From NCBI GenBank assembly GCA_938074325.1, contig CALJFZ010000046.1, positions 1 to 44,506 on the forward strand: a stretch of DNA of 44,506 nt, written 5' to 3'. The notes under the pieces are model-generated. The model ran no database searches and was not told the DNA's origin. It saw nothing but the letters and a program-made list of their open reading frames with translations. The DNA comes from an uncultured Flavobacteriales bacterium (GTDB lineage: Bacteria > Bacteroidota > Bacteroidia > Flavobacteriales_D > Sanyastnellaceae). Position 1 is the stretch's first letter. The number at the start of each line of letters is the position of its first letter. A program made the position numbers and the translations under genes. Positions 6,012-30,983 of the stretch are shown piece after piece.

Positions 6012-7082
6012 TCAGGCGTTGCGGTTCACGCAATTGAGGTCTTCAAAGGCTTGCTTGAGGCGAGCAACAAAGTAGCCCTCCCCTTGGCGCAACCAAACAC
6101 GCGGGTCGTACTTCTTTTTGTTCGGTACATCAGCGCCTTCCGGATTCCCGATTTGCGTCTTGAGGTATTCAATGTTTTCTGTGACGTAATCGCGGATACC
6201 GCTGAGGAACGCCCACTGCATATCGGTGTCGATGTTCATCTTGATGGCACCGTATGAAATGGCTTCGCGGATTTCCTCCACGGTCGAGCCACTTCCTCCG
6301 TGGAACACGAAATCCACGGGGTTGGCGTCAGTTTTGAACTTCTCCTCGATGAACTTCTGGCTGTTGTCCAAGATTTTGGGGGTCAGCGTCACGTTGCCAG
6401 GCTTGTATACGCCGTGAACATTTCCAAAGGCCGCAGCCACCGTAAACTGATCGCTGATGGTGCTCAATTCCTCGTAGGCGTATGCCACTTCCTCGGGTTG
6501 GGTGTAGAGCTTGCTGCTGTCGATGTCGGTATTGTCAACACCGTCTTCTTCCCCGCCAGTCACGCCCAATTCAATCTCGAGGAACATGCCCAACTTGTGC
6601 ATACGCTCCAAATAGGGTTTGCACGTAGAGATGTTCTCCTCAATAGGCTCTTCACTCAGGTCGATCATGTGCGAACTGAAAAGCGGCTGGCCCGTCGCGG
6701 CGAAATGCGCTTCACTTGCATCGAGCAATCCATCGATCCATGGCAACAGTTTGCGCGCGCAGTGGTCCGTGTGCAGGATTACAGGAACGCCGTAAGCCTT
6801 CGCCATGGTGTGCACGTGGTGAGCGCCAGCGATGGAACCCAATACTGCGTTTTCCTGGTTGTGCAATTTCAATCCTTTTCCTGCGGTAAACGCAGCGCCA
6901 CCGTTTGAAAACTGGATGATGACCGGCGAATTCAAGTCGCGTGCTGTCTCAAGAACAGCGTTGATGGAATTGGTTCCAATGACATTGACAGCAGGGAGGG
7001 CATACCCATTGGCTTGGGCATCTTCAAAAACCTCACGCACTTCTTTTCCCCACAGTACGCCAGGACGAAATTTTTGACTCAT
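6012..7082 (-). CDS. fbaA: fructose-bisphosphate aldolase, class II
   Basis: Zinc-dependent cleavage of fructose 1,6-bisphosphate to dihydroxyacetone phosphate and glyceraldehyde 3-phosphate. The ATG at 7082 (MSQKFRPGVLWGKEV) gives 356 residues, close to E. coli FbaA (359); the open frame upstream adds 17 residues that look non-coding. Class II motifs are present: VILHTDHCARKLLPWIDGL (first zinc His), EIELGVTGGEEDGVDN, AAFGNVHGVYKPGNV (zinc His) and VFHGGSGS with the phosphate-binding loop, then NIDTDMQWAF. It is first in an fba-pgi pair. A TAGTTTTG box at 7108-7101 is a plausible -7 element. Confidence 0.97.
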   Translation of the reverse strand: MSQKFRPGVLWGKEVREVFEDAQANGYALPAVNVIGTNSINAVLETARDLNSPVIIQFSNGGAAFTAGKGLKLHNQENAVLGSIAGAHHVHTMAKAYGVPVILHTDHCARKLLPWIDGLLDASEAHFAATGQPLFSSHMIDLSEEPIEENISTCKPYLERMHKLGMFLEIELGVTGGEEDGVDNTDIDSSKLYTQPEEVAYAYEELSTISDQFTVAAAFGNVHGVYKPGNVTLTPKILDNSQKFIEEKFKTDANPVDFVFHGGSGSTVEEIREAISYGAIKMNIDTDMQWAFLSGIRDYVTENIEYLKTQIGNPEGADVPNKKKYDPRVWLRQGEGYFVARLKQAFEDLNCVNRNA

Positions 7083-7100
7083 GGTTAGCAATTTGGAGCG

Positions 7101-7108
7101 CAAAACTA
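7101..7108 (-). promoter_or_regulatory. -7 box (TAnnTTTG) of fba-pgi
   Basis: The minus strand reads TAGTTTTG, an exact match to the Bacteroidota primary-sigma -7 consensus TAnnTTTG, 18 bases before the aldolase ATG. A TTG at 7133-7131 lies 22 bases upstream and could be the -33 element, slightly farther than usual. Confidence 0.5.
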
Positions 7109-7189
7109 CGCCCTGCTTTTGACATAACCCCAAGGATTAATGCAATCTTCACGCAGCATGTGCACCACGCGTCAGAAGGCATGTACAGT

Positions 7190-7687
7190 CTACATTCCCG
7201 AAGCAGCGTCCAGGTTTTGCAATGATTGACGCGCCCAGGTGGCTGCCTCCGATTCCGGGTGGACCTCAATGACCTGCTGGTAGGTCTTGCGAGCCTGTTC
7301 GCGGTCGTTCAATTCGACTTCAGCAATGAAGCCAACCAAAAACGCACATACCGAGCGTTTTTCATACGCCGCGTAGTGATCGTGCACATCCCGAAGCTGG
7401 GTCATGGCCTCCTGGAACCGTCCAGCTGAACGCAGAAGATCTGCACGGCGAAACAGCGCTTCCGGTGTAAATGCATCGTCATGACACGCATTGGCGAAGT
7501 CGGCATACGCACGCATCAACGCAGCGCGCGCCTCTGCATCAACCGATAACCCGCCAGCAAGCATCGCTTGCTCCATGGCTTCGATGTCCTCTCGGAGCTG
7601 CTTGCATTCACCTTTTGAATCGCCGCCGCAGGAAGCGAGCACCAACGCGACCCCCAACGCCAACACGATGGTCCATGGCGTCTTCAT
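7190..7687 (-). CDS. lipoprotein with TPR-like helices
   Basis: A 165-residue predicted lipoprotein. The signal peptide MKTPWTIVLALGVALVLASC ends in a lipobox (LASC, Cys20). The mature part is helical and reads like two or three tetratricopeptide-type units, e.g. FTPEALFRRADLLRSAGRFQEAMTQ and LNDREQARKTYQQVIEVHPESEAATWARQSL, resembling TolA-associated YbgF or BamD-type repeats. Its ATG overlaps the stop of the peptide deformylase gene by four bases (ATGA), so it is translationally coupled to def. A periplasmic scaffolding role is inferred from the fold only. Confidence 0.85.
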   Translation of the reverse strand: MKTPWTIVLALGVALVLASCGGDSKGECKQLREDIEAMEQAMLAGGLSVDAEARAALMRAYADFANACHDDAFTPEALFRRADLLRSAGRFQEAMTQLRDVHDHYAAYEKRSVCAFLVGFIAEVELNDREQARKTYQQVIEVHPESEAATWARQSLQNLDAASGM

Positions 7688-29433: not shown

Positions 29434-29937
29434 TCAGTCGCGGAAGGCAGTAAGCTGCGCGCTCAACTTCCGACGCGCGTGGAAGATTCGGCTCTTCACT
29501 GTGCCCATGGGAATTCCTAACTCCTCTGCAATTTCGTCGTAGTGGAAGCCTTCCATGAACATGTTAAAGGGGACCTTGAATTCGGGCTTCAAGCCATCGA
29601 TGGCCTCGCGAATGTCCTGCTCATTGATCACTGTCGTAACCGTGTCAGACTGCAATGAGCCAGAGTTGATGTAGTACTGATTGTCAGTGGTATCCAAAAT
29701 GGTGTTTTGGAATTTCTTGCGCTTGTAATTGTTGATGAAGATGTTGCGCATGATCGTGTACAACCACCCTTTGATGTTGGTGCCTTCTTTGAAGTTGTTT
29801 TTGTACCGCAGTGCCTTCACCATGGTGTCTTGAATCAGGTCTTCCGCATCCTGCGAATCGCGTGTAAATCCAATGGCAAAACCTTTCAGAAATTGTCGGT
29901 TGGCGACCAATAACGTGTTGAATTCTACTGTGCTCAT
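29434..29937 (-). CDS. ECF-type RNA polymerase sigma factor
   Basis: A 167-residue sigma-70 family ECF factor. Region 2 (about 5-72) has FAIGFTRDSQDAEDLIQDTMVKALRYKNNF and GWLYTIMRNIFINNYKRKK; region 4 (about 110-160) has LKPEFKVPFNMFMEGFHYDEIAEELGIPMGTVKSRIFHARRKLS with the helix-turn-helix. No anti-sigma gene lies next to it. The MerR-type regulator gene is 149 bases upstream on the same strand. From memory, this pair stands in front of carotenoid genes in many Flavobacteriia; here a T9SS cargo gene follows instead. A hairpin CATGCC/GGCATG at 29404-29422 follows the stop but lacks a T run. Confidence 0.94.
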   Translation of the reverse strand: MSTVEFNTLLVANRQFLKGFAIGFTRDSQDAEDLIQDTMVKALRYKNNFKEGTNIKGWLYTIMRNIFINNYKRKKFQNTILDTTDNQYYINSGSLQSDTVTTVINEQDIREAIDGLKPEFKVPFNMFMEGFHYDEIAEELGIPMGTVKSRIFHARRKLSAQLTAFRD

Positions 29938-29962
29938 GACCTTTTTGTTTAAAGATTCAGGT

Positions 29963-29993
29963 CAAAGATTAAACAGAAATTCCTTCAACGCAA
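29963..29993 (-). promoter_or_regulatory. possible promoter of the ECF sigma gene
   Basis: On the minus strand TTG (29993-29991), 20 bases, then AATCTTTG (29970-29963), one mismatch to TAnnTTTG. It predicts a leader of about 20 bases before the ATG at 29937. AAAGATT also occurs as a direct repeat at 29951-29957 and 29964-29970, which may be an operator for the upstream regulator. Confidence 0.4.
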
Positions 29994-30086
29994 GGTTTTG
30001 TTCAACTTTTATGAAAAAACTTTAAACAGTTTTCAGGAAACCCAGCAAAAACAAGGGTTACAGAGGGACTGACAAGAAATTTTAGC

Positions 30087-30983
30087 CTATGAGAACAGAA
30101 TCTGCGCCAGCCCGGCGCCGTCTGTGACGGTTTTTATGCAATCTGTACCTCCCACTCCTTCGAACACCTTCCCGCCTAGAACAAACTGGTTCTTCGAATC
30201 TGCAAATTCCGAATCAATGAGCTCGACATAAGCAGCGGCCTCGGAAGACGAAGGATGCGTCGTACAATAAGAGACAAAGACGGCGTTTGGAAATTGGTCT
30301 GCGACCGTGATCAGATCAGAAAAAGGAACACTTGCCCCCAGGAAGATGCTCTTCAATCCGTTCAATCTGCACAAGAAGTGAATGAAGAGCAAGCTGATAT
30401 CGTGAATCTCGCGTTCGGGTAGATACAACACCAGCGGGGGATGATCCTTCCGAACTGGGATATCCGACGTTGAGACCGCCGCGTGCAACTCTTGCCGCAT
30501 GAGGTGGCTGATGAAATGCTCCTGCGCTGGGCAAATGGTATTGGTCAACCACAACACACCTATTTGAGAAAGGAAAGGCAGAAAGACGTCCAAGACCGTC
30601 TTATCAAGCCCGTGTTCGGATGTGTAGTCATCCACTATTTTCCGGAAGAGCACCTCATCGTAGTTGAGCATGCTCAATTTCATCTGGCTGAACACCGCGC
30701 TCAAGCCTCCCTCTTCCATCTGCATTTCTTGGACCCGATCAATCAGCGCCTGATCGGACAGTTGAGCGACTTTCGAAATCTTACTCCCGTGGTCAATCAA
30801 GTACCCAACGTTCAGCAACTTCTTTAGGTCCTCCCCGCTGTAATACCGAATGTTGGTGGACGTCCGTTTGGGAGTCAAGAGGTTGTAACGCTGCTCCCAA
30901 GCACGAATCGTATGAGACTTGATGCCCGTGAAGTGCTCCAAGTCTTTGATTGAAAATTGTTGGGCTATCCCTCGTTCCTTCAT
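30087..30983 (-). CDS. MerR-family regulator with CarH-like cobalamin-binding domain
   Basis: A 298-residue regulator. The N terminus (about 8-75) is a MerR winged helix: FSIKDLEHFTGIKSHTIRAWEQRYNLLTPKR, NIRYYSGEDLKKLLNVGYL. The C terminus (~85-298) has the four-helix plus Rossmann layout of the B12-binding domains of CarH/LitR. Three key features match: Trp145 followed after exactly nine residues by Glu155-His156 (W-x9-EH, the cap over the adenosyl group in CarH), and His194 in EIHDIS, the place of the lower-ligand His of DxHxxG (Asp to Glu, Gly to Ser). GASVPFSDL and FVLGGKVF close the fold. It should be a light-sensitive repressor using adenosylcobalamin. I chose the ATG at 30983; a GTG seven codons upstream is possible. 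Divergent from the GlmU-like gene. Confidence 0.9.
   Translation of the reverse strand: MKERGIAQQFSIKDLEHFTGIKSHTIRAWEQRYNLLTPKRTSTNIRYYSGEDLKKLLNVGYLIDHGSKISKVAQLSDQALIDRVQEMQMEEGGLSAVFSQMKLSMLNYDEVLFRKIVDDYTSEHGLDKTVLDVFLPFLSQIGVLWLTNTICPAQEHFISHLMRQELHAAVSTSDIPVRKDHPPLVLYLPEREIHDISLLFIHFLCRLNGLKSIFLGASVPFSDLITVADQFPNAVFVSYCTTHPSSSEAAAYVELIDSEFADSKNQFVLGGKVFEGVGGTDCIKTVTDGAGLAQILFS

Follow-up and report, generated by a model that had tools for sequence, protein, structure and literature searches.

The gene examined here lies in a window of 44,506 nucleotides, the whole stretch of DNA that was analyzed from an uncultured Flavobacteriales bacterium, and it encodes a regulator of the MerR type whose cobalamin domain is CarH-like (Table 1). 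The open reading frame (carH) begins with an ATG at 30983 and ends with a stop codon at 30089-30087 to give 298 residues from the minus strand; a plus-strand reading of 30087-30983 is interrupted by stops. Pfam recognizes an N-terminal MerR-type helix-turn-helix (HTH; PF13411 at 1.2e-14, PF00376 at 6.5e-9) and a four-helix B12-binding_2 domain (PF02607 at 6.8e-8), and the Rossmann half, which gives no Pfam match at 1e-3, is visible in the structure model and in Foldseek comparison. The top PDB sequence matches are Thermus CarH entries 3whp and 5c8d (HMMER, E ~8e-19 and 9e-19), and a profile built from 65 sequences likewise finds CarH best in the PDB, at 1.6e-22. Against the NCBIfam model TransRegCarH (NF052513) the protein scores 85.7 bits, below the equivalog cut-off of 400.

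Table 1. Genes, residues and candidate regulatory elements of the carH-sigma factor locus (window coordinates)
Feature	Position	Strand	Remarks
ECF sigma factor gene	29434..29937	minus	next after carH
Candidate operator dyad 2, TGTTTAA-N16-TTAAACA (minus-strand reading)	29946..29975		exact match, 1 of 3 in assembly; overlaps promoter -7 box
Probable Bacteroidota-type sigma-gene promoter	29963..29993	minus	TTG 29993-29991, 20 bp, AATCTTTG 29970-29963; read from sequence
Candidate operator dyad 1, TGTTTAA-N16-TTGAACA (minus-strand reading)	29999..30028		exact match, 1 of 3 in assembly
CarH/LitR-like regulator gene (carH)	30087..30983	minus	MerR HTH residues 10-77; B12-binding_2 100-164; Rossmann-like ~184-297
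EIHDIS core (residues 192-197)	30393..30410	minus	His194 at lower-ligand position; Ser197 replacing Gly
Glu155-His156 of W-x9-EH	30516..30521	minus	118/118 and 117/118 distinct sequences
Trp145 of W-x9-EH	30549..30551	minus	118/118 distinct sequences

A structure model built with 64 relatives (pLDDT 93.0, pTM 0.83) shows the HTH, a bundle of helices and a part in which strands and helices alternate as in a Rossmann fold; a single-sequence model was discarded at pLDDT 39.8. Thermus CarH (5c8e) ranks first for the model in Foldseek, at 5.8e-15. Because the full-chain alignment with 5c8e has an rmsd of 11.6 A, the HTH and sensor halves are arranged differently from those of Thermus CarH. Isolated CarH cobalamin domains in the Foldseek list superpose with a TM of target of 0.73-0.82 and an rmsd of 3.0-4.0 A.

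The query carH adjoins an ECF sigma factor gene, a pairing of the LitR-LitS type. A carH match at E 1e-3 occurs in 77 of the 88 genomes of the query's family, two of them weak only, and at the 32 sigma-paired family loci with flanks the sigma gene follows carH in every case and glmU lies beside carH in 26. In the named set used for comparison the Flavobacteriaceae mostly have carH-crtI-crtB-crtZ without a sigma gene, and the Cytophagia (e.g. Marivirga, Algoriphagus, Pontibacter) have carH-sigma-crtI-crtB. Within the query's family crtI is present in 78/88 genomes, mostly in two copies; it lies elsewhere in the genome in the sigma-paired genomes examined and directly after carH in the two genomes G003 and G085, whose carH has no sigma partner. 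The query's own assembly, 87.9% complete, gives no crtI match at E 1e-60, and 16 of 17 congeners have the gene. A gene for a PduO-type adenosyltransferase is found in the query's own genome and in 83/88 genomes of the family. Two MAG contigs whose titles read Klebsiella pneumoniae and Rhizobium (L108, L143) also carry Bacteroidota-type carH genes; these bins are probably mislabelled.

The probable cobalamin site and its core motif

Site residues were compared in an alignment of 121 Bacteroidota sequences, 118 of them distinct, comprising the query, 40 loci of its family fetched by protein similarity and 80 named loci fetched by two peptide patterns, neither of which contains W145 or His194. 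Since one of the patterns contains EHF, conservation of the Glu-His pair among the 80 named loci is biased; with this qualification Trp145, Glu155, Glu192 and His194 are each present in 118/118 distinct sequences, query included, and His156 in 117/118, far more than chance would give. The one homologue that departs at His156 is L127, which has Arg there. The sequence-only reading had placed W145, nine residues, E155-H156 and the lower-ligand His194 as in CarH, and these assignments hold, being in register with the Trp, the Glu-His and the E-x-H His of Thermus CarH in the HMMER alignment.

The same reading had described the core motif as drifted. The EIHDIS hexapeptide at 192-197 is real, but the idea that the drift sets this protein apart is unsupported, the Gly-to-Ser change being common to 52/118 sequences. 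Among the distinct sequences, 60 have Gly at position 197, 52 have Ser, 4 have Ala and 2 another residue; the residue there tracks gene context, with Ser in 45/54 sigma-paired homologues and Gly in 45 of the 46 that are crtI-paired. Decay of the core motif was therefore rejected as an explanation, Ser197 being a lineage state found mainly in homologues that, like the query, are paired with an ECF sigma gene.

The strict CarH motif is given as E/DxHx2G(or P)-x41-SxT/V-x22-27-GG (PMC8156234 and PMC9304148, excerpts). E192, H194, S238 and G270-G271 are kept in the query, which departs from the motif in Ser197 for Gly, Cys240 for T/V and gaps of 40 and 29; the SxT/V and first-Gly positions are relaxed across all aligned relatives. 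Of a light-response signature consisting of GxxW, EH, GxxH and GxxxP (PMC11796333, excerpt), the query has GVLW, EH and GASVP, and its GxxH position reads RxxH. Because the cobalamin site is kept on both axial sides and the strict CarH-defining motif is incomplete, the protein is, as judged from its sequence, a CarH/LitR-like variant and not a canonical CarH. The His that follows the Trp is the upper ligand in lit Thermus CarH; the corresponding residue is Leu in the query and Gln or Leu in 108/118 distinct sequences. His is found there in many CarH proteins (PMC9304148, excerpt).

The claim that this is a CarH-type sensor is backed by the motif, the fold, the domain order, the genome's own adenosyltransferase gene and the nature of the genes at which the probable operator described below is found. 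Most likely the protein works as a B12 light sensor, though one of a variant type, and would bind adenosylcobalamin (AdoCbl) and respond to light.

A shared inverted repeat at carH, sigma and proteorhodopsin genes

The 149-bp gap between carH and the sigma gene contains two inverted 30-bp dyads of the pattern TGTTYAA-N16-TTRAACA, 53 bp apart, with the probable sigma promoter lying between and within them. This promoter, read from the sequence as TTG-20 bp-AATCTTTG, is judged against the usual Bacteroidota spacing. Its -7 box, AATCTTTG, departs in the first base from the flavobacterial consensus printed as TTGNTANNTTTG (PMC3587595, excerpt). Each candidate half-site includes the T-n-n-A-C-A of the published CarH half-site consensus nAnnTnnACAn (PMC8156234, excerpt). 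Among the pairs listed, tandem exact dyads are 52-54 bp apart in 22/22 genomes and exactly 53 bp apart in 18, a spacing that would put them on about the same helix face and, with four half-sites, would fit a CarH tetramer.

Dyads were counted at a score of at least 12/14, with C allowed at left-half position 5 and G at right-half position 3, and shuffled controls were mononucleotide shuffles. An N16 dyad lies 3' of sigma-paired carH in the query (1/1), its congeners (8/8), the rest of the family (23/24) and the named loci (12/15). It is rarer in family loci without sigma (2/8), is found at 19 of the 44 named crtI-paired loci, often with a -7 box TAnnTTTG inside the spacer, and is absent 3' of carH from all 11 named loci with neither a sigma nor a crtI neighbour. 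Ten of the 80 named loci fall outside these named groups, namely L075-L083, mostly of the query's family, and L147, which has crtB, in which neither sigma nor crtI was found and which was set aside. Other spacers mostly gave 0-4 and at most 9 (N8, N9), and shuffled means were no higher than 0.88. Upstream of the sigma gene the dyad is present in 32/32 loci, versus 2/149 for six neighbouring genes (singly 0/22, 1/29, 1/26, 0/26, 0/24 and 0/22). Of the binding sites guessed beforehand upstream of 29937 and 30983, the former is thus matched by two candidate dyads and the latter by none, the best score being 8/14. An operator on this glmU side of carH was likewise rejected from the relatives, where it was found in 1/8 congeners, 1/24 other sigma-paired family loci and 5/44 named crtI-paired loci.

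The exact pattern occurs at three places in the query's own 2.15-Mb assembly, and a reversed-pattern control at none; two are those between carH and sigma, and the third (G000:C21:7706-7735) lies 70 bp before the start codon of a proteorhodopsin gene. That gene occupies 708-1430 of locus L175 (G000:C21, about 6913-7635) and matches PF01036 at 6.2e-38. Over the 88 family genomes there are 115 exact sites versus 3 for the control pattern. Proteorhodopsin loci were read in 56 of 60 matching family genomes and 36 of 48 matching genomes from other families of the order, L220 (26 bp upstream) and L261 (a 21%-identical rhodopsin) being counted as misses. The N16 dyad precedes proteorhodopsin at 29/56 family loci, in eight genera (other spacers 0-6, shuffled 0.57), and at 26/36 loci of the other families (other spacers 1-7), the latter divided into 14/16 in one genus and 12/20 in the remaining genera. 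A dyad scoring at least 12/14 is missing before 27/56 family and 10/36 other proteorhodopsin genes, including all five of genus g17. Loci of the same genus are not independent of one another; spacers and start-codon distances vary between genera, so the dyads are not one inherited block.

Their joint distribution bears on whether CarH is the protein that reads the dyad. The exact dyad is present in 58/68 family genomes with carH, in 4/13 without detected carH (including G083 and G084, which have weak matches only) and in 0/7 of genus g19; the co-occurrence has a Fisher p of 1.5e-4, which ignores relatedness. In genus g19 the recognition region reads WENRY in 6/7 carH, and a changed dyad TGTA..A-N16-..TATACA lies at 5/6 carH and 3/3 readable proteorhodopsin loci, as found with a post hoc TGT..ACA filter that had no shuffled control; in the seventh genome, G085, the region takes its usual form, WEKRY, and the dyad is close to normal (13/14). 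The altered recognition helix and changed dyad are seen at L057-L062, and at L057 carH lies beside fasciclin and flavin-reductase genes. Two proteorhodopsin genomes of genus g2 are without both carH and the dyad, the best sites scoring 9 and 10. A counterexample is G072 (84% complete), in which no carH was detected and the proteorhodopsin dyad scores 12. Such a contrast is lacking in the other families, where each of the 36 proteorhodopsin genomes read carries a carH match at E 1e-20. Apart from G072, the co-occurrence, the paired change in g19 and the joint absence in g2, all uncorrected for relatedness, argue that CarH is the probable reader of the dyad.

A different element precedes crtI. 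The operator dyad was looked for there within the query's family and rejected (0/20 loci), an ECF-like element being present instead: TGAAC[AC]-N16-TGTT is found before crtI in 13/20 family loci (L155-L174; 0.02 after shuffling, no more than 3 with other spacers), is a probable ECF sigma promoter, and suggests that the sigma factor may drive the carotenoid genes. Exact dyads do occur directly before crtI in two family genomes outside those 20, of two genera (G022:C12:6504-6533 and G023:C64:6561-6590), the first without detected carH. A similar element, TGAAC-N15-TGTT, lies before 15/56 proteorhodopsin genes (9 of the query's genus, 3 of g3 and 3 of g6). Before proteorhodopsin of the query's genus, the -35 box of the sigma promoter overlaps the right half-site of the dyad and has bases in common with it, so that promoter and operator readings are inseparable there by sequence.

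Twenty further exact dyad sites were chosen by hand from the site list and fetched. Thirteen precede a fasciclin-domain gene, four of them with a divergent photolyase gene and three with proteorhodopsin next; the rest comprise two before a displaced sigma gene, three inside genes (chance) and two before other genes. Pfam confirmed 2/2 fasciclin and 2/2 photolyase calls that were run, the other fasciclin calls being made by reading. As general targets these genes were rejected, the dyad being present at just 2/20 fasciclin starts that were not chosen by dyad; since it is also absent before the fasciclin gene of the query's own genome, fasciclin targets, and with them the light-related character of this group of sites, are limited to some genera. 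At L289, L293, L294 and L305, in several genera, the dyad separates a fasciclin-domain gene from a DNA photolyase gene divergent to it; such a divergent pair also exists in the query's own genome (L369), where the fasciclin gene has no dyad in front. A dyad also precedes an ECF sigma gene of genus g6 that is located away from carH (L300 1473, L302 1524).

A candidate light-controlled circuit and its alternatives

The preferred reading, to which we assign a probability of about 0.6, is that the protein is a variant CarH/LitR dark photoreceptor-repressor acting on the ECF sigma gene and on proteorhodopsin. In the dark the AdoCbl form, probably oligomeric, would bind the two tandem dyads and so cover the adjacent sigma promoter, and the same form would also bind the single dyad before proteorhodopsin. 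In the light the Co-C bond would break and the complex disassemble, whereupon sigma factor and proteorhodopsin would be made. The sigma factor would then turn on the carotenoid operon, also the source of the retinal precursor, and in the query's genus it may aid proteorhodopsin transcription. A circuit in which CarH represses sigma and proteorhodopsin, and sigma drives the carotenoids, is the simplest. The chances are about even for a wider proposition, that a B12-dependent switch of CarH type has direct control of both proteorhodopsin and an ECF sigma carotenoid relay through an inverted 30-bp operator common to Bacteroidota, which would make photoheterotrophy in many Flavobacteriales dependent on vitamin B12 as its light sensor.

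The protein might bind the dyads and control the same genes and yet not sense light through AdoCbl, in the manner of CarA or class II LitR, light being perceived by way of another protein or of redox, or the protein being a reporter of B12 status. The degenerate strict B12 motif is in keeping with this, as are class II LitR, which work with a LOV protein (PMC9758184, excerpt), and the B12-independent CarA (PMC8156234, excerpt). However, CarA is without the Trp of W-x9-EH (PMC9304148, excerpt), whereas here W, E, H and the lower His are near-invariant, and the Rossmann half that is missing in class II (PMC9758184, excerpt) is present in the query; this explanation is considered rather unlikely. 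A different question is raised by the TGAAC-N15-TGTT elements before the 15/56 proteorhodopsin genes, for the sites there could be sigma -35/-7 promoter elements, with CarH acting on the sigma gene alone and reaching proteorhodopsin via sigma. In other genera and families, dyads with the full score of 14/14 (L207, L247, L265-L267, L286-L288) have the right half TTAAACA, not TTGAACA, and differ among themselves in spacer and in start-codon distance; such an indirect route is judged unlikely.

It is improbable that some other regulator, with its gene elsewhere in the genome, binds the dyads and that carH is a mere neighbour. The operator was assigned from position and statistics, and an exact dyad is found in 4/13 genomes in which carH was not detected; but dyads accompany carH in both gene orders and occur in exact form in 58/68 carH genomes (relatedness uncorrected), HTH and dyad are changed in the same genus (g19), and the half-site includes the T-n-n-ACA of the published CarH half-site. 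On the preferred reading, that of a dark repressor of sigma and proteorhodopsin, the more interesting part of the locus lies outside 30087-30983, in the probable operator that links carH to the ECF sigma factor and proteorhodopsin. The dyad supplies a candidate regulator together with a candidate site for proteorhodopsin control, and offers a compact candidate operator with which genes of Bacteroidota could be controlled by green light. In many related bacteria proteorhodopsin genes likewise have the probable carH operator in front of them, which suggests that their capture of light energy may be under the control of a B12 light switch; if this is true, light harvesting in a large bacterial group is tied to vitamin B12.

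For Bacteroidota CarH the searched literature yielded nothing beyond Chryseobacterium lacus, in which the authors found no car or lit genes according to the excerpt of PMC7064467. No title or abstract opening in the scope of the search, which left aside subscription journals and preprints, reports a link of proteorhodopsin with CarH/LitR or cobalamin. Proteorhodopsin and CarH are both mentioned in PMC9614035, PMC12627116 and PMC8582858, none of which links the two in the excerpts available.

Comparison with known regulators

The query shares with the CarH proteins of Thermus thermophilus and Myxococcus xanthus (class I LitR) the MerR HTH, four-helix bundle, Rossmann cobalamin domain, W-x9-EH motif and lower-ligand His, and, in its relatives, carotenoid genes as targets. 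It differs from them in the Ser that replaces the Gly of ExHxxG, in SxC and in having no His after the Trp. Its probable operator is a tandem inverted N16 dyad, not 11-bp direct repeats; Thermus and Bacillus CarH bind direct repeats and not inverted dyads (PMC8156234, excerpt). The probable targets, proteorhodopsin and the ECF sigma gene, differ as well. Class II LitR of Pseudomonas resembles the query in the MerR HTH and four-helix half, but has no Rossmann half and works with a LOV partner (PMC9758184, excerpt), so that the query, with its Rossmann half, falls outside that class.

M. xanthus CarA has the same domain order and retains the cobalamin motif and the EH, but it has no Trp in W-x9-EH, where the query has one, and it acts independently of B12. 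In the Streptomyces LitR-LitS system a CarH/LitR regulator gene lies next to that of an ECF sigma factor thought to drive carotenoid genes, and the query locus has the same adjacency of regulator and ECF sigma gene. The two systems belong to different phyla, and differ further in that the query's family has its carotenoid operon elsewhere in the genome and a proteorhodopsin gene with a candidate site of its own.
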